A stretch of DNA of 64,000 nt from positions 22,639 to 86,638 of the forward strand of contig NZ_OCMY01000004.1 of NCBI RefSeq assembly GCF_900215435.1, written 5' to 3'. A program made the position numbers and the translations under genes. The notes under the pieces were generated by a model. That model was given only the letters and a program-made list of their open reading frames with translations. It had not been told where the DNA came from and did no database searches. Shown one piece after another: positions 10,786-23,393 of this stretch. Numbering within the stretch: the stretch's first letter is position 1; every line of letters begins with the position of its first letter. The DNA is from Candidatus Pantoea floridensis. GTDB lineage: Bacteria; Pseudomonadota; Gammaproteobacteria; Enterobacterales; Enterobacteriaceae.

Positions 10786-10848
10786 ATGCGTGACGTACAG
10801 ACAGCACTCGACTTATGGCCAAACCATCTGCAGGGGACTGCACAATGA
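10786..10848 (+). CDS. 20-residue leader peptide overlapping umuD start
   Basis: An ATG at 10786 follows a strong AAGGAGG ribosome-binding sequence and opens a 20-codon frame (MRDVQTALDLWPNHLQGTAQ). Its TGA overlaps the umuD ATG as ATGA. umuD itself has no good ribosome-binding site, so its translation may depend on ribosomes finishing this peptide. Whether the peptide has a role of its own is unknown. It may instead be a relic of a longer N-terminal gene. Confidence 0.55.
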   Translation: MRDVQTALDLWPNHLQGTAQ

Positions 10849-11294
10849 AACCGGCTATCTGTTCTCCGGACCTGACTCTGCTCTGGCCCCCCCTCTTTAC
10901 ACCTCGCATACGCGTGCCGCTTTATGCTGAGCCCTGCGCGGCTGGCTTCCCCTCCCCCGCACAGGATTATGTCGAAAAAGAGCTCGACCTGAACGAGCTG
11001 TGCATCCGCCGGCGCGCATCGACGTTTTTCGTACGCGCCAGCGGCAGCAGCATGCAGGATCTCGGCCTGTTTGATGGCGACGTCATGGTGGTAGACCGTG
11101 CAGAAGAGGCCGCGCACCACGACATCGTCATTGCAGAGGTGGATGGCGAGTTCACCGTCAAGCGCCTGCAGCTGCAACCGCGCCTGGCACTACTGCCCAT
11201 GAATCCGGCCTACCCCGTCATTTATCCGGAAGAACTCCAGCTGCTTGGCGTAGTCACCTGGTTTTTTAACAGCACGCGTGCGCGCCGGAGGTAG
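10845..11294 (+). CDS. umuD: UmuD-like protein of DNA polymerase V (MucA/ImpA/RumA type)
   Basis: The 149-residue product has the self-cleavage site CAAGFPSPAQ near residues 29-38, with cleavage expected between Ala and Gly. The catalytic serine is in SGSSMQ and the catalytic lysine in VKRLQL. RecA-stimulated cleavage yields the form that joins UmuC as Pol V. The start codon overlaps the leader peptide stop, and the umuC ATG follows the umuD stop by 2 bp. An N-terminal extension of about 25 residues (CSPDLTLLWPPLF) differs from typical UmuD proteins. Confidence 0.9.
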   Translation: MKPAICSPDLTLLWPPLFTPRIRVPLYAEPCAAGFPSPAQDYVEKELDLNELCIRRRASTFFVRASGSSMQDLGLFDGDVMVVDRAEEAAHHDIVIAEVDGEFTVKRLQLQPRLALLPMNPAYPVIYPEELQLLGVVTWFFNSTRARRR

Positions 11295-11296
11295 CT

Positions 11297-12577
11297 ATGC
11301 CTATGTTCGGTCTGGCCGATGTGAACTCGTTTTATGCGAGCTGTGAGGCGCTCTTCCGCCCTGATCTTCGCGGAAAACCGGTAGTGGTGCTCAGCAACAA
11401 TGATGGTTGCGTCATCGCGCGCAGCGCCGGCGCCAAAAAGCTCGGCATAAAAATGGGCGCGCCGTGGTTCCAGATAAAAACCCAGGACTATCCAGAACGC
11501 GTACATGTGTTCAGTTCGAATTATGCGCTGTACCACAGCATGTCGCAACGTGTAATGACGGCACTGGAAGAAATGACCCCTCGCGTAGAACAGTACTCAA
11601 TTGATGAAATGTTCCTTGATTTAACCGGCATCGATGGCTGCGAAGACTTTGAGCACTTTGGCCGGCGCCTGCGCACGCACGTGCTTAACACAACAGGTCT
11701 GACCGTAGGAGTAGGCATGGGTCCGACTAAAACCCTTGCAAAATCAGCGCAATGGGCGAGTAAAGAATGGAAGCAGTTCCGCGGCGTATTTGCACTGACG
11801 CCTGGCAATCCTAAACGTACTGAAACCCTTCTGGGCAATCAGCCGGTAGAGGAAATCTGGGGTGTGGGACGTCGCATCGGCAAGCGCCTTAATCTGATGG
11901 GAATCGAAAACGCCTTGCAGCTGGCGCGTGCGCACCCTGCCCTGATCCGCAAAAATTTCAGTGTTGTTCTCGAGCGAACCGTGCGCGAGCTCAACGGAGA
12001 ATCGTGCATTCCGCTCGAGGAGCTGCCCCCGGCGAAGCAGCAAATCGTTTCCAGCCGCTCTTTTGGCGAACGCATCACTACAAAGGTGGCCATGCAGGAG
12101 GCACTCTGCCAGTACGCCGCTCGGGCAGCTGAAAAGCTCAGGAAAGAGCGTCAGTACTGTCGGCACGTTGGAGTATTTATACGAACCTCTCCACACGCTA
12201 AGGATGAAGTGTTCTATGGAAACAGCGCCGGCGAGAAGCTGGCCCTGCCAACACAGGATACGCGAGACATCATTGAGGTGGCCATGCGATCGCTGGACCG
12301 CATCTGGCTGGAAGAGCGCCGTTATATGACCGCCGGCATCATGCTCGATGACTTCACCCCGAACGGCGTCAGTCAGCTGAATCTCTTTGATCACACGCAA
12401 CCCCGGGCAAATAGCGCGCAGCTGATGAAGGTGCTGGATGGCATAAACCAGTCAGGGCTGGGTAACCTGTGGTTTGCGCGTCAGGGTGTCAACAACGAAT
12501 GGAAAATGAAACGAGAGTTGCTCTCTCCTGCCTGGACAACAAACTGGAAAGATATCCCTGTGGCGTTTATTAAATAA
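11297..12577 (+). CDS. umuC: UmuC-like Y-family DNA polymerase (MucB/ImpB/RulB type)
   Basis: The 426-residue length is normal for UmuC. The N terminus has the Y-family catalytic motifs: LADVNSFYASCE with Asp and Glu metal ligands, NNDGCVIARS, and YSIDEMFLDL carrying the second acidic pair. The helix-hairpin-helix region WGVGRRIGKRL follows, and a little-finger domain ends with the beta-clamp-like motif QLNLF near residue 355. With UmuD it performs error-prone translesion synthesis. Its 3' end borders the repeat-separated small-gene array, and a diverged copy of codons for residues 356-401 recurs at 16938-17070. Confidence 0.95.
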   Translation: MPMFGLADVNSFYASCEALFRPDLRGKPVVVLSNNDGCVIARSAGAKKLGIKMGAPWFQIKTQDYPERVHVFSSNYALYHSMSQRVMTALEEMTPRVEQYSIDEMFLDLTGIDGCEDFEHFGRRLRTHVLNTTGLTVGVGMGPTKTLAKSAQWASKEWKQFRGVFALTPGNPKRTETLLGNQPVEEIWGVGRRIGKRLNLMGIENALQLARAHPALIRKNFSVVLERTVRELNGESCIPLEELPPAKQQIVSSRSFGERITTKVAMQEALCQYAARAAEKLRKERQYCRHVGVFIRTSPHAKDEVFYGNSAGEKLALPTQDTRDIIEVAMRSLDRIWLEERRYMTAGIMLDDFTPNGVSQLNLFDHTQPRANSAQLMKVLDGINQSGLGNLWFARQGVNNEWKMKRELLSPAWTTNWKDIPVAFIK

Positions 12578-12645
12578 GGCTTTAGGGCTGGGTAAAATAA
12601 GAAGATTGATTTGAGAAGCGCTGCCAGATCGAAGCAGCGCATCAG

Positions 12646-12849
12646 CTACTGATACTTTGGCCGGATCATTGTACTTTTTTCACAGTAGACCACGCTGTTT
12701 GCTGGCACATCTTTAGTCTCGTAGGCCATAGCTCCTATCGTCACATTATCACCAATAGTGATGTCACAAGTGAAATACTGAGCGTTCAGGTTATTCTGTC
12801 CAACGACGAAATGGTACAACAGCCCCGACCCGAGAATCTTTAGTTTCAT
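12646..12849 (-). pseudogene. 3' remnant of a hexapeptide-repeat acyltransferase gene
   Basis: The last 40 codons read ITIGDNVTIGAMAYETKDVP and so on, the ending of a left-handed beta-helix (hexapeptide) acyltransferase coil. The upstream part of the frame passes through the first 26-bp repeat (12782-12802) and is not family-like. The gene therefore appears to be cut at the repeat, leaving only its 3' end as cassette content. Whether the 67-codon frame is translated is uncertain. Confidence 0.45.
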
Positions 12850-13030
12850 TTGGTACTAATTGCATTGGAATTCAGTGCCTTATCAAGCCATACTAGACAA
12901 TCTGGTTATTCTGTCCAGTGCTGGTTTATCCAGAGTGATTCCACTTGAGCGGCTTTTATTAAGCCAGCCTTCCTCTTATTCTCCTCAACTGGTCAGGCCA
13001 TATCAGGATCATAGAATGCAGACGAAAAAA

Positions 13031-13056
13031 AACCGCCTGTAGGATGGGCGGTTTCT
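13031..13056. terminator. Bidirectional Rho-independent terminator
   Basis: ACCGCC and GGCGGT form a stem around a short loop. A-rich sequence precedes it and TTTCTTTCT follows, so it can work in both directions. The surrounding 12850-13546 interval holds a 26-bp repeat at 12893, this terminator, and two copies of a 16-bp direct repeat at 13096 and 13462, but no convincing gene. Confidence 0.65.
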
Positions 13057-13347
13057 TTCTCTTGGCCTGTTAGGAGCAGGCTAGAAGTAACTAAAACATG
13101 TTCAATCGACAAAGCAATTGTAGTACCTGCATACTTCTGTGTCCACTTCAATATTGCATGTCCGTCCCTGACTACTCACTATTTACATAAGTACAATTTA
13201 TTAAAATCTGCTGACAGTTATACATACTTTGAGATATGATCTTAGCGTCGTTGTCTTGTCGGAATGTTGCGGTTTCGGTGTAAGGGTAAGGTTGAACAGT
13301 TACTTGTAGTAAGTATTTGTCGTCCAATTCTTATACCTACAATGCGC

Positions 13348-13378
13348 CTTATTACAGTTGTCCAAGTAATGTAATAAG
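13348..13378. repeat. 9-bp perfect hairpin between two 16-bp direct repeats
   Basis: CTTATTACA (13348-13356) and TGTAATAAG (13370-13378) are perfect inverted arms with a 13-bp loop. The hairpin lies between the two copies of ACATGTTCAATCGACA at 13096-13111 and 13462-13477. No gene is evident here. Confidence 0.5.
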
Positions 13379-13546
13379 ACGTTTTAACCGTATGGTTAGC
13401 AGTCGGAGCGTAGGAACTCCAGTTGGGCTTGCTGCTGATCTGTATCCACACCGCTACTGAGACATGTTCAATCGACATTGCTTGTCGCGGCAAAGCGGGG
13501 ACTCAACTCAGGCGGAGCCAGGTAGCCCTTTTTAAGGGACGCGACT

Positions 13547-13693
13547 ATGAAAAAGATAACGAAATGCATTGCCGGTTTCGCTCTAATTCTAAGCTCACTA
13601 GGTTTTACGCCGACCGATGATTCCAAGTCAACCAGCACAAACTGGTTTTCCGGGAACACCATCGTAATCGTCGTAGGCCAAAAGGCAAAGTAA
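13547..13693 (+). CDS. Small secreted or membrane-anchored protein in the cassette array
   Basis: ATG 13547 follows AAGGGACG and opens a 48-codon gene. The N terminus has two lysines and then a hydrophobic stretch (CIAGFALILSSLGF) that looks like a signal peptide or single membrane anchor. The C-terminal half is polar and then valine-rich. A strong terminator follows at 13723. I do not recognise a family. The ribosome-binding site, signal-like start and terminator together make expression plausible. Confidence 0.5.
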   Translation: MKKITKCIAGFALILSSLGFTPTDDSKSTSTNWFSGNTIVIVVGQKAK

Positions 13694-13722
13694 CCATAAA
13701 AAAACCTTCTAGGTGAATTTTT

Positions 13723-13750
13723 CGCGGTCGTAAGGCCGCGTTTTTATTTT
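13723..13750 (+). terminator. Rho-independent terminator
   Basis: CGCGG and CCGCG pair around TCGTAAGG, followed by TTTTTATTTT. It ends the transcript of the small gene at 13547-13693. Confidence 0.75.
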
Positions 13751-13942
13751 AATTTTTGTTCATTCTCTTTTTGCTGCAAGTGATATTTCCCCCTGCCGTT
13801 TCAAACCAGTACCAGCCCTTGATGATCACCTCCGCCAGTAATCTGCCTCGTCTATCTGGACGTGCAGGTAATTCCGTCCAGTTCTGCTGGTAGGTGGAGA
13901 TCTGGCCTACTATTAACATTTTTTAATAAGAGGAATCTGCGC

Positions 13943-14122
13943 ATGAAAAGAGATACAGCTATTGAATTCGGTCTTCAGAAAATTAAGAACGCTATAAATC
14001 AAGCCAACCAATCAGGTACGCATAACGTAAGCGTCAAGCTACCAGAGCAGGAATACAAAGCAGTTATGCAAGACATTTGTACTGAACTTGCTAAACCAGA
14101 TAATCACAAAATGGACGAGTAA
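13943..14122 (+). CDS. Small cytosolic protein of the cassette array, unknown function
   Basis: The 59-residue product starts at ATG 13943 after AAGAGGAA. It is a hydrophilic helical protein (IEFGLQKIKNAINQANQSG) with no membrane segment or recognisable motif. It lies between the 26-bp repeats at 13856 and 14161 and reads rightward, the same direction as umuC. It could be transcribed from upstream as well as from its own promoter. No family was recognised. Confidence 0.55.
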   Translation: MKRDTAIEFGLQKIKNAINQANQSGTHNVSVKLPEQEYKAVMQDICTELAKPDNHKMDE

Positions 14123-14195
14123 GCGGCCTTTTTACGCCTTTCGTGTAATTCCCCACGCCTTATGGACAGTCCGGTAATTCTGAATACAAGGTATA

Positions 14196-14696
14196 TCATA
14201 TGATTCTGTCAAAGATTCCGGCGTTGAATCCGCTATTAATCAAAATATTCGCATCACTATCTGACAGCTCTTCAAAGACTTTATAAACAACACCAGATTT
14301 TTCAAGAAAAGTACGAGACCCAATCAAGTAGTCATGTTTCCCGTCAAAGGCGTAGTTGAATAAGGATTGCAACTCTAATGGTATTTTTGAAGAATATATG
14401 GTCCAGAATATAGATGCATCAAAAATATAATTATCCACTTCAACCCATGCGTGTCCATCCCAGAGGCCAGAAAAATCGGATCCACCGGAAAAAACGGGTT
14501 TGATAGGTTTGTGTGCAAAGACAAGTTTGTCATATAAAGTTAGACTTCCAGTAACGAACCTAGGTTTTAGATCAAAGTGATCATGTATTTGAGCAAATAA
14601 TAGCGCCCCCATATACAGGCATACACCTTCCTTTTTATTAGTTATAGCCAGCACTTCTTTCATTATTTCATTAATTTGTTGGATTTGTTCTCTCAT
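14196..14696 (-). CDS. Transglutaminase-like cysteine-protease-fold protein
   Basis: ATG 14696 lies just after GGGGAGGTGTAT, so I prefer it to the upstream GTG at 14702. The 166-residue product has a Cys-His-Asp triad arranged as in bacterial transglutaminase-like proteins: Cys26 in KEGVCLYMGALLF, His82 in GHAWVEVD, and Asp93 in YIFDAS. Families with this fold act as peptidases, amidases or peptide-maturation enzymes. Substrate and role are unknown. The gene lies between the repeats at 14161 and 14888 and points left, opposite to umuC. Confidence 0.65.
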   Translation of the reverse strand: MREQIQQINEIMKEVLAITNKKEGVCLYMGALLFAQIHDHFDLKPRFVTGSLTLYDKLVFAHKPIKPVFSGGSDFSGLWDGHAWVEVDNYIFDASIFWTIYSSKIPLELQSLFNYAFDGKHDYLIGSRTFLEKSGVVYKVFEELSDSDANILINSGFNAGIFDRII

Positions 14697-14895
14697 ATAC
14701 ACCTCCCCAATATGACAGCGTTATGTCTGTGTCGGTTGCACCGATAAAGTTAGACATCATCATAATTCCCGCCCCGATTTGAAGCACAGCACTTTGTGTC
14801 CATTGCTGGCATAACTTGCCATCGATGCGGCGGTGCGGTCGCAGAACTGCTGGCATACCATCGCCGCTACGTAAACTCCGCACTAGCCTGGACGT

Positions 14896-15432
14896 TCAGG
14901 TGTTTCTGTCTACGTTTGTACCCTGCCTACGCCAGATCGACCACCACGCATGGGGTTTACCCTGAAGTGCTGCTTTATCCTGAAGCAATTCAGCACTCAC
15001 TACCCCCTGAAGCAGTGAAACGGAGTCTCTCGCGGCATCACGACAGGAATCGATTACTTCTATTTCATTGGGTTTCCTGAGAAGAATAAATTGCGATACC
15101 TTTTCCTGTGTGGCAAACGCGTAGCCTCGCAATTCTGACGAAGAGGTAAGACTCACAATATTATGCAACCGCATATAATTGATGTAGTCCTCGCCACCCG
15201 GATCACATGATTCAAAAAGATATTTCTGCATTAGCGTTTGCGATGAAGAAAGAAAATCGATATAGCGGTCTGTTTTTTTATCTATATCCCGCAGTCGTTG
15301 AGCTACTTCTTCTTTCCATATTTCTTGGCGGTGTGTTAGTTTCAGCGTAACCCAGCCGCCAACAATGGTGATTAACGCACCCAGCCCAATTTTTACGGCA
15401 CTGTCAGCTACATCCACCCACTCAACCGCCAT
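14896..15432 (-). CDS. Membrane-anchored coiled-coil protein, unknown function
   Basis: The 178-residue product begins with a short polar segment and then one hydrophobic helix at about residues 14-32 (IGLGALITIVGGWVTLKL). A charged helical region follows (RQEIWKEEVAQRLRDIDKK) that suggests a cytoplasmic coiled coil. The ATG at 15432 follows GAAGGGTT. The last codons run into the 26-bp repeat at 14888, so its C terminus may have been set by recombination there. It occupies one repeat-bounded interval alone. No family recognised. Confidence 0.6.
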   Translation of the reverse strand: MAVEWVDVADSAVKIGLGALITIVGGWVTLKLTHRQEIWKEEVAQRLRDIDKKTDRYIDFLSSSQTLMQKYLFESCDPGGEDYINYMRLHNIVSLTSSSELRGYAFATQEKVSQFILLRKPNEIEVIDSCRDAARDSVSLLQGVVSAELLQDKAALQGKPHAWWSIWRRQGTNVDRNT

Positions 15433-15526
15433 TTGCTAACCCTTCTATTTCAATGATGACCTTGGCTGTCAGTATAAATCCCCGGCGGATTTGACAGGCA
15501 GGTTTTTCTGTCCAGTTCCACTGGCC

Positions 15527-15754
15527 GTGTCGGATCTAGCCTGGTTGAATGGTTTGACCGTGGAGTCATGGAATAATAATGTCGCTGTAAGACTTTTTGC
15601 ATCAGTATGGACGTATTCATTCGGGGGCAGCGATGCGATCAGGGCTGGGATGGCTTTTGTTCTTGCCACCATTTGTTTTGCCCTTACAGTCCTTTGCCGT
15701 AAAGGTTTCCTTTATTGCCAGTTCAAACTGAAGCAGCACCAGATACCGAACTAA
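15527..15754 (+). CDS. Small putative membrane protein in the cassette array
   Basis: The frame stays open from inside the repeat at 15490. I place the start at GTG 15527, giving 75 residues, but no strong ribosome-binding site supports it. A hydrophobic stretch AFVLATICFALTVL near residues 45-60 suggests one membrane helix, followed by a basic tail. The stop codon lies inside a perfect 13-bp hairpin. Coding potential is uncertain. Confidence 0.35.
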   Translation: MSDLAWLNGLTVESWNNNVAVRLFASVWTYSFGGSDAIRAGMAFVLATICFALTVLCRKGFLYCQFKLKQHQIPN

Positions 15755-15777
15755 GGCCGCGCCAGCGGCCTTAGTTC
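15748..15777. repeat. Perfect 13-bp hairpin, terminator-like
   Basis: GAACTAAGGCCGC and its exact reverse complement flank a 4-bp loop. It overlaps the preceding stop codon. There is no good U-tract, so it may be a weak terminator or a structural element of the array. The rest of the 15755-16031 interval contains the repeats at 15804 and 15957 and no gene. Confidence 0.6.
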
Positions 15778-16031
15778 TGCCCCTCGCTTAATTCCCCGGC
15801 CAACTGGACGTACAGGTTATTCTGTCCATTACCGGCATCCGGTCGGCTACAGCTGCGGGGGTAAGCATCTGTTTTGCTGCCACAACCGGCGAGCTCCAGC
15901 TGGCGCCGGGCGCTTGACTGCTGTCAGACCGTCAGTTCCTTTAATCTCTATCCCACCTGTATTCCGTCCAGTTCTGCTGGCGATGAGTGAACCATCCTGG
16001 TAATATCAAAGTACTACTATAAGCGGAGCCA

Positions 16032-16259
16032 ATGCTGAGTTCACAACCCGAACCGACAATTGTTATTAACGGTACCACCCTTACTGATACACAAGTAATG
16101 ACTCTCCGCTGCGCCTGTTCTGATTTCGGCTCAGACCTGCTTGAGCATGGTCTTGATGATGATGAAGGCGGTAAAGCAATGACTGCTGGCTATCTGGCGA
16201 GACCAGGCGAGTTGGGTAAATTACTGCATTTACACTGTGAATGTTCGCTGGAACGTTAA
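16032..16259 (+). CDS. Small acidic protein of the cassette array
   Basis: ATG 16032 follows AAGCGGAGCC. The 75-residue product is acidic in the middle (LLEHGLDDDEGGKAM), with a short beta-like N terminus (TIVINGTTLTDTQV) and three cysteines. There is no membrane segment and no recognised family. The interval between repeats at 15957 and 16529 contains this gene and the next one in the same orientation, 53 bp apart, so they may form a two-gene cassette. Confidence 0.6.
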   Translation: MLSSQPEPTIVINGTTLTDTQVMTLRCACSDFGSDLLEHGLDDDEGGKAMTAGYLARPGELGKLLHLHCECSLER

Positions 16260-16312
16260 AGGTACGTCAGTAGCCGTCACTCTCAATAATTTTTCACTCG
16301 GCAGGTTCAAAA

Positions 16313-16516
16313 ATGAAAAATAAGATTAAAAGATCGGAAATTCTTTCCTGGGCAATATTTACCATTATCGTATCGAGCGTGTTTTTGTACTGGCGTCTTA
16401 CTACCCATAGTCTTTCCCTGTATTCCATCATTGATGCACTTTGGCCTGCAGCAATGTGTTCTGTAGCTTTCATCGGCATACTGCTCAACCTACGCATTCT
16501 GATTAGAAAAGCCTAA
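16313..16516 (+). CDS. Small two-helix membrane protein
   Basis: The 67-residue product has hydrophobic helices at about residues 10-26 (ILSWAIFTIIVSSVFLY) and 41-62, with basic residues at both ends. It therefore looks like a small hairpin-type inner-membrane protein with both ends in the cytoplasm. It is the second gene in the interval before the 16529 repeat. No family recognised. Confidence 0.6.
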   Translation: MKNKIKRSEILSWAIFTIIVSSVFLYWRLTTHSLSLYSIIDALWPAAMCSVAFIGILLNLRILIRKA

Positions 16517-16634
16517 AATCAAGCCACACTGGACAATCTGGTTATTCTATCCAGATTGCGCACACTAATTCCGTGCTGGTATGCCCGGATCAGCTGGTTG
16601 AAAATGTATACATCACATTAGGAGTGGCATCTCA

Positions 16635-16817
16635 ATGGAAACAGAAAACTTACAAGAACAGGAAACTTTCCCGCAGACGACGCTCAGCGAGCATTTGACT
16701 CCTGAACAGTTAGCGATACTCGCACGCATAGTTTCGACAAACACGCAGCCCATCCTAGATGAAGTACCACCGTTCAGTCAGGATGTTCTTGAACAGTTCC
16801 GGCAGATGCACCGTTAA
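16635..16817 (+). CDS. Small helical protein of the cassette array
   Basis: ATG 16635 follows TTAGGAGTGG and encodes 60 hydrophilic residues rich in Glu, Gln and Thr (ENLQEQETFPQTTLSEH at the start). No membrane helix or known motif is visible. A terminator follows directly. It is the only gene between the repeats at 16529 and 16888. Confidence 0.5.
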   Translation: METENLQEQETFPQTTLSEHLTPEQLAILARIVSTNTQPILDEVPPFSQDVLEQFRQMHR

Positions 16818-16835
16818 AACCGCATCATCGTACCC

Positions 16836-16860
16836 GCCGCCGTGTCAGCGGCTTTTTTTA
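16836..16860 (+). terminator. Rho-independent terminator
   Basis: GCCGC and GCGGC pair around CGTGTCA, followed by a TTTTTTT run. It ends the transcript of the 16635-16817 gene. Confidence 0.7.
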
Positions 16861-16937
16861 CGCTCAAAGTCTCATCCTGCCAATTAACCTGACACGACCA
16901 TTATTCTGTCCATTGGCTCTGATTGTAGTCCTCAAAA

Positions 16938-17070
16938 GCTTCAGTCTGCTTAATCTCTTTGATGACTCGCAACCCCGGGCAAATAGCGCGCAGCTGATGA
17001 AGGTGCTGGATGGAATCAATCGGTCCGGGTTAGGCAATCTGTGGTTTGCGCGTCAGGGTGTCAACAACGA
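16938..17070 (+). pseudogene. umuC: Internal 3' fragment of a second umuC allele
   Basis: This 133-bp stretch encodes LNLFDDSQPRANSAQLMKVL and on to GVNNE, matching residues about 356-401 of the intact UmuC. The nucleotide sequence differs at many synonymous sites (for example GGAATCAATCGGTCCGGG against GGCATAAACCAGTCAGGG), so it is not a recent copy of the local gene. It starts 25 bp after the 16888 repeat and ends abruptly before the last 25 codons of umuC. It looks like debris from another umuC locus brought in with the array. Confidence 0.85.
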
Positions 17071-17111
17071 ATTTGCAGTTATAGTGAGTCTGTGCTCTAT
17101 TTCAGTTGCAA

Positions 17112-17276
17112 TTATTGTGAGCCAAAATTTGCGCTGATTGCGAGTCCGACTGTTTTCGATTGCGAGTCGCTACTGATTTTGGCCTGTGTCGGTGTGGTTC
17201 CGGCGATTTGCATCGCTTCGTCGGCGCTTTGCTTGAGTTCTGCGTCAATACGCACATTCACATTTACTGTAGCCAT
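17112..17276 (-). pseudogene. Truncated RelB/DinJ-family antitoxin gene
   Basis: The 54-codon frame begins MATVNVNVRIDAELKQSADE and continues AMQIAGTTPTQAK, the ribbon-helix-helix N terminus typical of RelB/DinJ antitoxins. After that it diverges into unrelated sequence, losing the toxin-binding C-terminal part. No toxin gene follows. Its ATG overlaps the stop codon of the upstream membrane-protein gene (TAATG), so it may still be translated by coupling. It could be a free DNA-binding domain. Confidence 0.6.
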
Positions 17277-17548
17277 TATTTACCCCCTTTCTCCGTGATT
17301 TGGCGAATGAAGCGGAACGTCAGATAGATGGCGGTGTACCCTGCGAAAAGAGTAATAATAGGCATCAGAATTACTCCAAATAGGGCATAGAGTTTGGCGG
17401 CGATTTCGCCCGAATCACTCTTCATGCGTACTATATCTTCATTTGTAAATCTGGATATGAAATAAATACCGGATACTGCCAACGTGTAACAAAGGGCAAT
17501 TACTTGTTCGGATATTTTTGTACTTGTATTTGACTTATGATATTTCAT
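17276..17548 (-). CDS. Small two-helix membrane protein
   Basis: The 90-residue product has two hydrophobic segments, about residues 16-32 and 52-78, separated by a charged loop (SRFTNEDIVRMKSDSGEIAA). The ATG at 17548 follows GGAGCGACAG. The stop overlaps the start of the antitoxin remnant. It lies between the 16888 and 17784 repeats on the strand opposite to umuC. No family recognised. Confidence 0.55.
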   Translation of the reverse strand: MKYHKSNTSTKISEQVIALCYTLAVSGIYFISRFTNEDIVRMKSDSGEIAAKLYALFGVILMPIITLFAGYTAIYLTFRFIRQITEKGGK

Positions 17549-17563
17549 TATCTGTCGCTCCGG

Positions 17564-17716
17564 TTACTGGAATAAATCACTCTGGTTTTCAAGGAAATGA
17601 TAACTCAAGGCGGTTTCTTCACGCCGGATTTTGTCCTGTCCTGCATAGAAATAATTGCTGGCATTAGGCCAGCTGCTGCCGTGCAGCCAACGCCAGAAAT
17701 GCAGGCAAATTATCAT
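17564..17716 (-). CDS. Possible 50-residue peptide upstream of the membrane gene
   Basis: An ATG at 17716 opens a frame reading MIICLHFWRWLHGSSW at the start and ending in a polar tail. It stops 15 bp before the downstream gene, which would be a normal operon spacing. There is no clear ribosome-binding site, so the call is tentative. The following 17717-18815 region contains the last 26-bp repeat (17784) and AT-rich DNA towards the partition genes, with no convincing gene. Confidence 0.25.
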   Translation of the reverse strand: MIICLHFWRWLHGSSWPNASNYFYAGQDKIRREETALSYHFLENQSDLFQ

Positions 17717-18754
17717 GGCGCCAGCCGCCGGCGACCGCAAAAATGCTGGCAAAGCTCCCCCGTAAAGTAATCACCGCGCCAACCTGGACGTTCCGGTCAT
17801 TCATTCCAATCAGCCCGCCCTAACCCCTGAATCGGTGGGTAATCAGGGTATAGAGCTTTCAACAGCTGACCGGCACACCGCATTTTTGTTGCCTCCCCGC
17901 TCGCGTCCGACACTATCCCCGCTGCCAGCAAAACATGCTTTCACGCTTGAACGAAACTGCACATTCGGAATAAATGTCCAGTGACGCTGCCGGGTAGATC
18001 GGCATTTTTTTTAAGTTGACTAGCGACCGCTCAAACAAATTAGAAAACAAAGGAAATGATATCAATTTAATATTACTTAAGCATCTATTTAATATCATTT
18101 AAACACTGAATTAGCACATTTCGCATTAAGTAAGTCTTCCTGCCATAGCAGGCATATCCTGGTAAAACCGCCGTCGCTGGCCGGCATCCTGAGTGGCCGT
18201 ATCTGAGGAGAGTCTCCGGCTATGTGCTGTGCAGAGAAGGAAACGGCTCTCATTATGGGCGTGAATACGAAGGAAATAAGGATGCACCGGCAGAAGGCTT
18301 TGGCTCATTTCTGACGCCATCCTCTGCAGTACGTGTGGGTTTAAAATCAGCAGGGAAAGGGATGAAAAATTGCGGAGAGGTACTGGTTTACACAGCTGCC
18401 TTCATGCTGCAGTCGTTCAGGCCGGAGCGTGTCATCAGCATAGCCTTCTGACGAGATGAACAGAAGGCTAAGAAACGGATACAGGAGCTCACAACATCAA
18501 AACGGGCTGATGACAGAAACAGGACGCTTAGGGCTTTCAACCTGGGAACGGTCAGGTTTACCGACGCGGCACTTCACATAAGCAGGCCGAATACGGTATG
18601 TCTGACCGGCGATCCTCAGCCACTCAGAAATACATCGTGTGCAGGGAAGCAGCATTATCGCGCAGAGAATGCTGCATTAACAGTTCACGATGGGTGCAGC
18701 ATGCAGTCTTTGAGTCGCATCAGATAGATGTTAATCAAACATTCTTTCAATGTG

Positions 18755-18815: not shown

Positions 18816-19085
18816 TTACCCGCCTACCTGCGCTCCTTTATCCAGCAGCTGCCGCACCGCCATCCGGATGAGTGCGGCACGGGACAACCCTTCATGCTGA
18901 GCAAGGTCGTCCAGCTGGGAAATGATGCTGGTATCAAACGTGACCGTGATCTGCTCACGCTGGCCTTTCTTGACGCCACGTTTTTCCACTTTATTTCCAT
19001 CAGGTGCGTCATTGATGAATTTCTCAATCTGCGCCTGTTCCTGTGGTGGCGCAGTTGATGATTTGGGTCTGGAAGTAATAGCCAT
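18816..19085 (-). CDS. Ribbon-helix-helix partition partner (ParG/CopG-like)
   Basis: From ATG 19085 the product has 89 residues. A disordered, basic, proline-containing N terminus is followed by a ribbon-helix-helix domain: strand EQITVTFDTSI, then ISQLDDLAQHEGLSRAALI. This mirrors ParG/CopG-type centromere-binding proteins, whose basic tail stimulates the ATPase. The gene follows parA by 44 bp on the same strand, as expected for a type Ib cassette. It probably binds the TTTAATATTAA-type motifs on either side of the cassette. Confidence 0.75.
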   Translation of the reverse strand: MAITSRPKSSTAPPQEQAQIEKFINDAPDGNKVEKRGVKKGQREQITVTFDTSIISQLDDLAQHEGLSRAALIRMAVRQLLDKGAQVGG

Positions 19086-19129
19086 TACACATCGCCTCAA
19101 TACTTAATTAATATTACAATAATATCACA

Positions 19130-19786
19130 TCAATATTTAAATACTATAGAAATGAGTTTCTCGAGTTCTTCCTTCGCAGGCTTCTCATGCGGTTTAAGTT
19201 TTAGCTCAACAACGGAGCGGCCGCTGCCGGCGGCATTGGCAAATGCTTTACGCATATGCAGCAGGTGGTCCAGTACGGGGATCTCATCCGCATACTCTGA
19301 CATAGCCGCCACCATCTCCTGATTATCTTTACTGCGCGGGTTAACGTCAGCCCTGTTGAGAATTGAGAACGCAGGGAAAGGCTCACGGATGCTACGTGCC
19401 TCCTGAAGCATTTTCACGACGTCTTCCATAGCCCAGGCCTCAAAGCTGCCCGGCACAAACGGTACCAGTGCATAATCCGTTAGAGTGAGCGCGGCCCTCA
19501 TTGCTGTTGAATCTCGCCCGCCACATTCGATGATGACGTCATCATAGTTATCTTTCTGCTGCAGAACCTGCGTTCTCAGCACCGGTCCGTCAGGATAATG
19601 AGAGCAGGCGATACCAGGCTGCACATCCGCTTCAGAGCGGATCAGAATTGCCGTCTGAGATGAGCCCTGTTTGTCCCCGTCAACGAGCCAGACCTTCTTC
19701 CCCTGAAGCGCACGGGCAATGGCAATGTTGACTGCGAGAGTAGATTTGCCCACGCCACCTTTGGTATTCACGATAGTTAAAATCAT
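19130..19786 (-). CDS. parA: ParA-type partition ATPase
   Basis: The 218-residue product has the deviant Walker A motif KGGVGKST at residues 9-16, Walker A' region WLVDGDKQGSS and Walker B region YDDVIIECGG. It lacks an N-terminal helix-turn-helix, so it belongs to the short type Ib (ParF-like) group. It moves plasmid copies along the nucleoid together with the downstream ribbon-helix-helix protein. AT-rich operator-like repeats fill the upstream region 19790-19925. Confidence 0.9.
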   Translation of the reverse strand: MILTIVNTKGGVGKSTLAVNIAIARALQGKKVWLVDGDKQGSSQTAILIRSEADVQPGIACSHYPDGPVLRTQVLQQKDNYDDVIIECGGRDSTAMRAALTLTDYALVPFVPGSFEAWAMEDVVKMLQEARSIREPFPAFSILNRADVNPRSKDNQEMVAAMSEYADEIPVLDHLLHMRKAFANAAGSGRSVVELKLKPHEKPAKEELEKLISIVFKY

Positions 19787-20760: not shown

Positions 20761-21666
20761 TTAGCCTCCCTTAATACCCGGGTAGTTCCGCTGCCCTCTG
20801 GCGGGCAGTTCGTCGGGCATGACCAGCGCGCGCGCTTCCTCCGGCGCCATCGAGAACCGCACGCCGAGCTGGCGCGTGACGTCCAGCGCCATCACCTGCG
20901 TATACCACTCCGTCGACTTTTCATCCTTATGGCCCATCATCGACTGGATGACCTTTTTCGGCACGCCGTGCTGAACCAGGTGCATCGCAAACGAGTCCCT
21001 GAAAGTTTTCGTTGTGATCGGCCGGATGCTGAAGGTGACGCCGTCACGCTCTGCGGCTTTGACTGCCTGCCTAATCCAGGTGCGGACGGTGTCCGGGCTG
21101 TCGATGTCCCAGATGCGCTCGCCCTTTTTCAGCCTGACAGTGGCCAGATACTCGCGCAGCCGGCGCACGTAGCCCGGATCGGTGAGCGGGACGGCGCGGG
21201 GGGGATTGGCTTCGGCCTCGCGCAGCGCAGCCTGGTCCTCACGGGTCGGCCGGCCGCGGCCGCGCTGCTTCTGCCGGTCCTCATCCCGCCGCTGCTTCAG
21301 TGTGTGCAGCACCGCGAAGGGTGCCCCGAGCGCGCGCCCGTCGGGGCCGTCGAGCGCAAAATCTTCCGGCGTCAGCGGCAGCACCTCGTTCAGCCGGCCG
21401 CCGGTGTTCCAGAACGTCTCGATCAGCAGCCTTTTCCGCTGGTCGCGTTCGGCGTCGAGCAGTAGCGCCACCTCTGGCGCCAGCAGGTAGCGGGGCATGG
21501 CCGTGCCGTAGTGCGCCGCAAGGTTGCGCAGCGCCAGCGCCGAGGCATAGTCAAAGTAGCGCGCCGCGCTGCCGCCGGTCACGTTCTGCGCGCTGACGTC
21601 GCTGGGTGAAATCTGCGAAAGTTCGCGAGGAAAACCTCTCAATTTTTCAATCTCCGCAATCTGCAT
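20761..21666 (-). CDS. resD: ResD-type tyrosine recombinase (plasmid multimer resolution)
   Basis: The 301-residue protein is a tyrosine recombinase: the first catalytic Arg lies in TGGRLNEVL, and the C-terminal box reads TFRDSFAMHLVQHG, then MMGHKDEKSTEWYTQV. The His-Arg pair is substituted in the usual H-x-x-R position, with the conserved GHK and the nucleophilic Tyr in STEWYT. The sequence resembles ResD of plasmid F, which converts multimers to monomers at rfsF. A 28-bp inverted-repeat site lies about 230 bp upstream (21893-21920). Confidence 0.87.
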   Translation of the reverse strand: MQIAEIEKLRGFPRELSQISPSDVSAQNVTGGSAARYFDYASALALRNLAAHYGTAMPRYLLAPEVALLLDAERDQRKRLLIETFWNTGGRLNEVLPLTPEDFALDGPDGRALGAPFAVLHTLKQRRDEDRQKQRGRGRPTREDQAALREAEANPPRAVPLTDPGYVRRLREYLATVRLKKGERIWDIDSPDTVRTWIRQAVKAAERDGVTFSIRPITTKTFRDSFAMHLVQHGVPKKVIQSMMGHKDEKSTEWYTQVMALDVTRQLGVRFSMAPEEARALVMPDELPARGQRNYPGIKGG

Positions 21667-22016: not shown

Positions 22017-23393
22017 GTGTATAACAATCTCTACGCTCTGACTGACAGCCTCTTCTGGTCTGATGAACTGTTAAAAAATGAATATGCAGATATAGAATTC
22101 ACAGAATTACTGAATGAGCTGAATGAATACAACGAAAAAATAGACCGGCTAATAAGCGACCCAACGAACGATTTACAATCTTCACGCCTAAATGTTTATA
22201 TGGCCGGAGACAAAAACATTGCTAACTACCGTAGCGGACTTTTTTCGATGGACAGAGTCATTCTGGATGACGTTCTCTACTCACTAAGTCAGCGACACAG
22301 GTTGAAATTAACAGAAAACATCATTGAAAAATTTATCGAGACTGATGGTAATGAAAAGTCTGTTATTCTCAGGAAAGAGATATCTTCTTTTATACGCTTT
22401 GCTAAGGAAAACTTCCCGCTCATACAAGGTGAATTTATTGTTTTCGCAAGGAGCAAATCGGTAATTAAAGAATCTGAAAGGGCTGACGGCATATTAGCCG
22501 ACAACGCTGAATCGAAATTCATCTACCGTTATCTTCCGGCTGAAATAGCCCGGCTCTATGAAAAAAAATTATCTGTTCAAAATATTGAAAGATTAGGGAA
22601 AAGCAACAGATTCCGTTTTTTAGACAAAAGCGTTCTAGCAAATGAAATTATGATTAAAATTGAGGACTGTAGAAGCCCGTATACCAACGGCTACATGTAT
22701 CAGCACGCCGGAAAAGTCACTGATAATGGTGATAGCATAGTATTTTCAGATGTTGTGATGGGTAATCACAGCGGAAAAAAAAGCTATGAAAGATGGGTCC
22801 AGGGAGCAAAAAACCGCACCGTTCTCTTTCACTACAGGAATCTCATAGCTGACCTTGAGCAGGCACATGCAGGAAGGGCTTCCCTTGGTACCTACTGTCC
22901 TTTTCAGGGTGAAGTGCTTCGTAAGCTGGATCCGAAAGATGAAGTGCAGAGAGTCAAACTTTCCGTAGATATGCCGTTCTTGGAAGGAGTGACTCCCGGT
23001 GAACTTTTCAGCATAAGAACTGAGTTCGAGGCGAGCTTTAATGCATTCCGGGCGGTGTTACGTGACACTGCTTTTGATATGGAGGCAGAGAGCGACCCTT
23101 ACCGGAGGGAGCTAATAAATAAACGTTTTACAGAGAGAGTCTGGGATGAAGGACTGAGTGATATTGAGCAAAAAATCCACGCATATAAGCGTAGAAGTAA
23201 AAAAGACCTCTTGCTGAATGTCGCGCCGGCAGTGATAGGAATCATAGGTGCACCAAGCTGGATTACGATGACAACAGGCGCTATATCGCTACTGAAGGGG
23301 CTGTATGACATCAACAGTCACTCTGCTGAAATTCAGAGTCATCCTTCCTATTTCCTACTTAAGGCGTCAAAAACGAAAGATAAAAATAATTAA
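22017..23393 (+). CDS. Unrecognised 458-residue protein of the AT-rich island
   Basis: A GTG at 22017 after AAAAGGAAAA opens this gene. The product is charged and largely helical in the first 200 residues. It then has a mixed region with RYLPAEIARLYEKK and DRVILDDVLYSL-type segments, and a hydrophobic patch near the C terminus (LLLNVAPAVIGIIGAP followed by ITMTTGAISLL) that could touch a membrane. I recognise no domain. Low GC and codon use differ sharply from the transfer genes, suggesting recent acquisition. It lies between the paired 28-bp sites. Confidence 0.65.
   Translation: MYNNLYALTDSLFWSDELLKNEYADIEFTELLNELNEYNEKIDRLISDPTNDLQSSRLNVYMAGDKNIANYRSGLFSMDRVILDDVLYSLSQRHRLKLTENIIEKFIETDGNEKSVILRKEISSFIRFAKENFPLIQGEFIVFARSKSVIKESERADGILADNAESKFIYRYLPAEIARLYEKKLSVQNIERLGKSNRFRFLDKSVLANEIMIKIEDCRSPYTNGYMYQHAGKVTDNGDSIVFSDVVMGNHSGKKSYERWVQGAKNRTVLFHYRNLIADLEQAHAGRASLGTYCPFQGEVLRKLDPKDEVQRVKLSVDMPFLEGVTPGELFSIRTEFEASFNAFRAVLRDTAFDMEAESDPYRRELINKRFTERVWDEGLSDIEQKIHAYKRRSKKDLLLNVAPAVIGIIGAPSWITMTTGAISLLKGLYDINSHSAEIQSHPSYFLLKASKTKDKNN

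Follow-up and report, generated by a model that had tools for sequence, protein, structure and literature searches.

An array of small gene cassettes between 26-bp sites on a Pantoea plasmid, with a resolvase-family tyrosine recombinase as candidate enzyme

Integrons carry small gene units in direct orientation beside an anchored end and exchange them at one edge of the site; the 3′ end of a unit is the more conserved part of its sequence, and orphan arrays, which lack an integrase, are also known among integrons. We found the same traits in an array of small genes separated by copies of a 26-bp site on a plasmid of Candidatus Pantoea floridensis (NCBI RefSeq assembly GCF_900215435.1). The array lies in the window analyzed here, a stretch of 64,000 nucleotides (positions 22,639 to 86,638) of contig NZ_OCMY01000004.1, which is 86,638 bp long and is called C4 below. 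Plasmid modules of Acinetobacter bounded by short pdif (dif) sites resemble the array in carrying toxin-antitoxin and accessory genes and in being shared among plasmid types (available part of PMC9455709). Multimer resolution by ResD-rfsF and RsdB on F, IncR, IncI1, and pSLT plasmids involves the recombinase family (ResD, by name and place) that also supplies the candidate enzyme of the array. The available parts of the respective reports describe an IncR neighborhood similar to that of the window, with umuCD, parAB, rfsF-resD, and vagCD (PMC9412624), and gene-set switching at rfsF of IncI1 plasmids (PMC8004404). From the evidence below, we conclude that this is very probably a mobile gene-cassette array with site-specific exchange.

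It is confirmed that the window carries an array of small genes between copies of a 26-bp site (Table 1): a weight-matrix scan places eight strong and three weak copies between umuC and the partition region, all on the + strand. The pattern CTGGAC-N14-GTCCAG, with at most two mismatches, matches 10 places in the window (7 in the array and 3 elsewhere) compared to 2.19 expected, and none of 100 window shuffles reached at least 10 matches. A matrix score of at least 11 is found at 11 places in 12532-17985, whereas 200 Markov shuffles averaged 0.07 such places and never had more than 1; because the best Markov-shuffle score was 18.9, none of the three weak copies exceeds chance on its own, and because the matrix was partly seeded with window sites, the scores of these sites are favored. 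No place in the remainder of the window scores at least 17, and five sequences (175,290 bp), shuffled once each, contained no match at that score. The initial annotation of this DNA, made from the sequence alone, had listed nine sites, of which those at 12893, 13856, 14888, 15490, 15804, 16529, and 17784 are real according to both the pattern and the matrix scans. Its degenerate unit at 14161 fits better when moved to 14162, its unit at 16888 is weak, and two sites had been missed, one strong (12778) and one weak (14778). The partial unit at 12532 belongs to the coding sequence of umuC and lacks a right arm, and around 15946-15971 on the + strand a right arm alone is well preserved. Across 67 contexts (loci of that stage, chance matches still included), the consensus of the site is CTGGACATTCAGGTNATTCTGTCCAG. 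Positions 4-6, 10, 12, 17-19, and 21-25 hold a single base in >90% of the contexts, position 15 is free, and a weaker signature, TAATTCCCCGCCA, lies upstream of the sites at −14 to −2 (top base 40-66%).

The anatomy of arrays of this kind was examined, like the breakpoint described below, in 44 loci (L numbers) with 146 sites, using thresholds of 18 or 20 for the site and 25 for the 35-bp element and matrices seeded with some of the sites that they score. Set aside from the locus comparisons were L001, the single matches in other bacteria (L011, L013, L014, L018, L023, and L024), and the short loci L031-L072, and the later site counts also leave out L092-L110. Adjacent sites less than 8 kb apart have the same orientation in 100 of 102 pairs. 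A 35-bp palindrome, about CTGGACATTTCGGCACTATCGGAAAAATTGTCCAG, is present in 30 of the 44 loci with sites; in all 30 it lies 87-172 bp past the last site in matching orientation, and of the sites in these loci 113 lie towards the array and none past the element. Unit length ranges from 115 to 7734 bp (median 596 over 100 units), and a unit has between none and a few genes, which may lie on either strand. The cargo bounded by sites includes, by domain, AbiD (L081 and L082), FRG/PDC-S15 and SduA-like (DUF4263) nuclease (L082), DpnII-MboI-type nuclease (L030 and L081), and PemK (L085), and, by annotation, Phd/RelE (L029 and L083). The link to insertions into umuC or its homologue rulB that had been suggested for the window is not supported: umuC is intact, umuD-umuC (10815..12577) is the left neighbor of the array and stands outside the mechanism, and the constant element is the 35-bp palindrome at the other side of the array.

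Whole units are gained and lost at the sites. Loci L005 and L002 are near-identical over the compared stretch, save one extra 447-bp unit between two L005 sites, where L002 has a single site. Extra whole units opposite one site were also found in L111 compared to L002 and L005 (2206 bp), in L087 compared to L028 (2152 bp), and in L089 compared to L088 (337 bp), the numbers of extra units across these three comparisons being 1, 3, and 4. Unit gain or loss at a site is therefore seen in four independent comparisons (five rows); L113/L114 and L079/L081 resemble multi-unit gains and are uncounted, since the rule missed them, probably because their right flanks differ. Among all pairs of loci of that stage, 365 interior homology ends were counted, and 104 of them coincide with a site in each locus, compared to a mean of 7.0 and a maximum of 14 in 200 random shifts. 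Three of the four unit gains adjoin the 35-bp element, as anchored entry predicts, though four cases are few. The cassette-array logic proposed in the initial annotation is borne out by this exact gain and loss of repeat-bounded units and by the homology that ends at sites in other plasmids. The contrary outcomes, namely, units that are never gained or lost and repeats that are plain terminators, were looked for and not found. Overall, its interpretation is partly supported.

We observed a single breakpoint within the site, placed best at positions 16-18, with some groups conflicting. Among 16 groups of sites sharing a right flank and 15 sharing a left flank (some loci being shared between groups), a breakpoint after position 16 leaves 26 conflicts, after 17 leaves 28, after 18 leaves 29, and after 13 leaves 43. 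Sites with the same right neighbor and different left neighbors vary at positions 1-16, and at positions 17-21 at most 1 of 16 groups varies per position; in groups with the same left neighbor the variation leans the opposite way. Variation at positions 13-16 is seen in 14 of the 16 groups with a common right flank compared to 5 of the 15 with a common left flank (Fisher test, P = 0.003). The L089/L088 pair allows a breakpoint at 15-18 alone, and the L005/L002 pair at 15-26. Judging from these alignments, exchange most likely occurs where the right arm borders the spacer, so that the spacer would stay with the left unit. Because tyrosine recombinases cut at the edges of the spacer and serine recombinases at its center, this position favors a tyrosine-type over a serine recombinase. 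At position 15445 of L025, a left site half is joined after position 16 to sequence that shares just GTCCA with the right arm, and this junction may represent integration at a secondary site.

We propose that the array is a mobile cassette array moved by an RsvB/ResD-type recombinase acting at the last site and the 35-bp element, and we consider this proposal, as a whole, probable. A unit would begin at the spacer-side edge of a site's right arm (TTCTGTCCAG...) and continue to position 16 of the following 26-bp site (...CTGGACATTCAGGTNA). We infer that units would excise as circles and re-enter through a single site-specific crossover that falls between positions 16 and 19, with a preference for the last site, next to the 35-bp element. 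These two elements would form a composite attachment site, made of a crossover core and an accessory site, that cassettes with the same core could enter. Originally, the composite site may have served a plasmid tyrosine recombinase from the RsvB/ResD family for multimer resolution, and that enzyme would double as resolvase and cassette integrase. Loss of the recombinase would leave orphan arrays, and many plasmids (IncX1 and probably that of the window) would be orphan or served in trans.

The plasmid tyrosine resolvase of the RsvB/ResD family is the likeliest candidate for the array enzyme, and we infer its role with moderate confidence from its position. The initial annotation had suggested looking for a tyrosine recombinase linked to such arrays elsewhere, and a member of the plasmid resolvase family is indeed linked in several relatives. 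In the IncX4-like loci L079, L081, L088, and L089, the last site is followed after 155 bp by the 35-bp element and, after a further ~100 bp, by the start of a tyrosine recombinase gene. Its product has ~271 amino acids (aa), the gene is named rsvB, ‘ResA’, in the L089 record, and a ParA/MipZ-type gene comes next. The IncX1 loci L004, L027, L028, L080, and L087 retain 329-340 bp of this stretch at 89-96% identity, including the first ~43 bp of the rsvB-type gene, after which they diverge, and a comparable remnant is annotated as a partial tyrosine recombinase in the L113 record. ResD-type relatives are found ~90 bp to 1.4 kb past the 35-bp element in L003, L026, L029, and L030; they are 80-91% alike among themselves and 42-48% alike to RsvB and to the window protein. 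Curing of an IncX4 plasmid by disruption of its resolvase, possibly the rsvB product, has been reported (available part of PMC11537010). The L026 record has its array-side ResD frame (14606-15349) broken into pieces.

Several observations weigh against the proposed mechanism. Serine recombinase genes lie past the 35-bp element in L002, L005, L082, L083, L111, and L112, and a serine resolvase takes the place of the full rsvB-type gene in the five IncX1 loci. The ResD-type genes of L003, L026, L029, and L030 are reversed, with the 3′ end facing the array. For its own reaction, ResD of F uses rfsF, a different site of 28 bp (AGATCCGNAA-N8-TTNCGGATCT; available part of PMC8299605). In the window, the recombinase lies 2.8 kb past the 35-bp element, the array end and its 35-bp copy are degenerate, and K replaces the usual H of HxxR, as read from the sequence. 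None of 19 RsvB/ResD-type loci (from 13 of 394 genomes, with at most 6 candidates scored per genome) has a site or a 35-bp element within ~1.5 kb, one of the 19 being the window's own gene, whose array lies beyond that reach; the family therefore usually operates without arrays. No 35-bp element was found at threshold 25 in 14 of the 44 loci, some of which are cut by locus ends, and contig C2 of the same genome has two sites and no Phage_integrase match. As for the breakpoint, positions 17-20 vary in 2 of 16 same-right-flank compared to 5 of 15 same-left-flank groups (P = 0.22) and are rarely variable at all; the L087/L028 pair literally permits 23-25 alone, unless position 23 changed later; and L111 compared to L002 allows no single breakpoint without one substitution (16-21 if it is ignored, in our own reading).

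Part of this evidence would also be expected if the cassette array and breakpoint are as proposed and another enzyme acts in trans, be it a host recombinase or the tyrosine recombinase of another plasmid or of a prophage, with RsvB/ResD as mere neighbors that resolve dimers at their own sites. The sites do adjoin tyrosine genes, serine genes, or none, linkage is absent in all 19 family loci of relatives, and ResD has a site of its own: rfsF-type 28-bp sites with 0 or 1 mismatch lie past resD and apart from the array (L003 8982, L026 17415, L029 18149, and L030 16919). Yet the RsvB gene stands ~100 bp from the 35-bp element in all four IncX4-like loci, with a remnant in five IncX1 loci, and we regard the action of another enzyme as rather unlikely. 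We also tried the 35-bp element as an rfsF site and dropped this idea, because the published rfsF sequence and a scan of the loci spoke against it; both the 26-bp and the 35-bp elements are distinct from the 28-bp sequence.

A serine resolvase for which the 26-bp site is crossover site I and the 35-bp element accessory site II, in the manner of a Tn3-type res site, would account for the serine genes past the element in the IncX1 loci and in L002, L005, L082, L083, L111, and L112. The 26-bp and 35-bp lengths, shared outer arms, and unequal spacing also resemble res subsites, as that architecture is generally known. This reading requires exchange at the center of the site, yet the conflict count is higher at position 13 (43) than at position 16 (26), and L089/L088 rules out position 13. 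Moreover, a separate palindrome-like stretch, GTTACCACATAAGTGATACC, precedes the serine gene of L002 and L005, and no annotated serine recombinase is found beside the array in the IncX4-like loci. The serine-resolvase reading was rejected on the position of the crossover, and we hold it to be very improbable. Host XerCD acting at pdif-like sites is slightly less probable still: in Acinetobacter, plasmid modules served by Xer are an established cassette system (available part of PMC9455709), but the arms CTGGACATTC and TTCTGTCCAG are unlike the arms of dif in a comparison by eye. That the copies are ordinary repeats bordering genes, such as terminators, operators, or repetitive extragenic palindromic (REP)-like elements, rearranged by homologous recombination, is the least credible of the alternatives and is, in our view, already refuted. 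A short palindrome between genes would suit such repeats, and three of eight single-strand folds have z-scores between −2.1 and −2.6; of the other folds, four lie between 0.03 and −0.66 and one is at −1.39. Against ordinary repeats stand the orientation, which is fixed though genes lie on both strands, the fixed end element, the exact exchange of units amid unrelated flanks with a breakpoint within 26 bp, and the plasmid location of 1017 of 1033 matching places in Escherichia coli.

Compared to the mechanism proposed here, the known systems differ in several ways. The statement of the initial annotation that no integron integrase is present holds for the window plasmid, which does carry the tyrosine recombinase already described: the single Phage_integrase match on C4 is RsvB/ResD-like, and integron-integrase models scored far below the cut-off. 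Its remark that the sites lack RYYYAAC/GTTRRRY cores is likewise upheld: GTTRRRY occurs near 22 of 146 sites and RYYYAAC as well near just 6 of them. With no IntI and no attC cores, two defining tests for integrons fail; in addition, the genes run both ways. No consistent attC-like fold emerged, the z-scores of 8 folds being mixed (0.03 to −2.63, with three lower than −2 and four higher than −0.7). Pdif modules are bounded by XerCD sites, whereas the array has arms that look unrelated by eye, uniform orientation, and the 35-bp end element, and we take it to be neither an integron nor a pdif array. In the ResD-rfsF/RsdB systems, the rfsF sequence is distinct and located elsewhere, and the available parts of the reports describe no cassettes; RecHS of IncA/C plasmids is a single hot spot with no array mentioned in the available part of its report, and it is set apart by description, not by sequence. 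A link to the CUP element of IncN plasmids yielded nothing worth following in a literature search. Among the matches listed from the open literature (subscription papers and preprints lying outside that search), we found no description of the 26-bp site or its arrays. The array looks like an undescribed counterpart of the integron, although an earlier description is possible in the literature outside that scope. Our proposal in its broadest form would add a third system of cassette arrays to integrons and pdif modules. In this system, an RsvB/ResD-family dimer resolvase would use its own resolution site as attachment site, and one-edge exchange would move a shared pool of small genes, phage-defense and toxin-antitoxin genes included, among IncX, IncF, IncR-like, and environmental enterobacterial plasmids; we see the balance for and against this form as about even. 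If so, a cassette system left unmarked in the annotation that we read would account for the variable regions of well-studied plasmids. Phage-defense and toxin-antitoxin genes can be array cargo, and the 26-bp site offers a handle for finding small genes of unknown function traded by plasmids. The proposal also raises the question of whether a plasmid dimer resolvase can double as a cassette integrase.

The sites are widespread on enterobacterial plasmids. The array query matches 1861 of 72,556 plasmid records somewhere, and all 60 plasmid matches listed lie in the unit 14888-15515, at 83-89% identity. Thirty of these 60 (H61-H90) start at most 5 bp from the left site and the other 30 start 18-44 bp inside; 28 of H61-H90 stop at the right site, and H61 and H62 run on into the next unit. 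A 30-bp consensus matched 1948 of 72,556 plasmid records at 3324 places (1 for the reversed control), 681 of 5426 complete E. coli genomes, and 25 of 50,697 phage records, just 3 of them over 80% of the query; these record counts and those for the array admit E values up to 10 and include partial matches. Species genomes gave 14 matching stretches, 8 in Enterobacterales and 6 in other bacteria, which we judged to be chance matches, and a looser pattern matched 12 of 394 genomes of the order, several by single chance-looking matches. Further sites occur in the same genome on contigs C2 (L073 8633 and 8994) and C3 (L074 8858), with no 35-bp element in the stretches read. Five sites and a 35-bp element are also found in L017 (838-4510), a Pantoea sp. 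SOD02 record labelled as chromosome.

Table 1 Features of the array and its surroundings, in window coordinates (ORF, open reading frame)
Feature	Position	Strand	Basis or remark
umuD	10815-11294	+	ORF; named from sequence
umuC, intact, 426 aa	11297-12577	+	ORF; DNA similarity to Pantoea/Erwinia plasmids
26-bp site, strong	12778..12803	+	matrix score 33.2; overlooked in the initial annotation
26-bp site, strong	12893..12918	+	pattern and matrix scan
26-bp site, strong	13856..13881	+	pattern and matrix scan; common unit start TTCTGCTGG comes next
26-bp site, right arm degenerate	14162..14187	+	matrix score 16.1
cassette gene, 168 aa	14196..14702	-	ORF; no Pfam match at E 0.05
weak site	14778..14803	+	matrix score 12.9; TAATTCCC precedes, as at other unit ends
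26-bp site, strong	14888..14913	+	left end of unit common to many plasmids
cassette gene, 178 aa	14896..15432	-	ORF; 3′ end overlaps site 14888; ‘peptidase M14’ elsewhere without domain support
26-bp site, strong	15490..15515	+	right end of unit 14888-15515
26-bp site, strong	15804..15829	+	pattern and matrix scan
decayed site	15946..15971	+	right arm TTCCGTCCAG alone well recognizable; read from sequence and D3/D5 repeats
two small cassette genes, 75 aa and 67 aa	16032..16516	+	ORFs
26-bp site, strong	16529..16554	+	pattern and matrix scan
small cassette gene, 60 aa	16635..16817	+	ORF
26-bp site, left arm weak	16888..16913	+	matrix score 11.8
cassette genes, RelB-like 54 aa and 90-aa protein	17112..17548	-	ORFs; Pfam search
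26-bp site, last of array, attachment-site equivalent	17784..17809	+	pattern and matrix scan
35-bp palindrome ending array, degenerate copy	17947..17981	+	163 bp from start of last site (17784)
small DNA-binding protein, partition-type	18816-19100	-	ORF; named from sequence and synteny
ParA-type ATPase, partition-type	19130-19786	-	ORF; named from sequence and synteny
tyrosine recombinase, 301 aa, RsvB/ResD-like, candidate enzyme	20761..21666	-	Phage_integrase match and comparison with family

The intervals between the window sites hold small ORFs on both strands, in agreement with the tiny genes in both orientations noted initially, and a Pfam search of the window units gave almost no domain match. 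The RelB-like protein matches at E 0.02, below the Pfam cut-off, and its 90-aa neighbor has no Pfam match. In its window copy, the protein that many records list as ‘peptidase M14’ gave no match in Pfam, NCBIfam, or PADLOC; because its stop codon falls within the neighboring site, exchange of the unit would alter its C terminus. Inside another unit, positions 16938-17072 are a 135-bp copy, at 90% identity, of the 3′ part of umuC (12366-12500), followed by unrelated sequence; this copy is a remnant of another umuC end.

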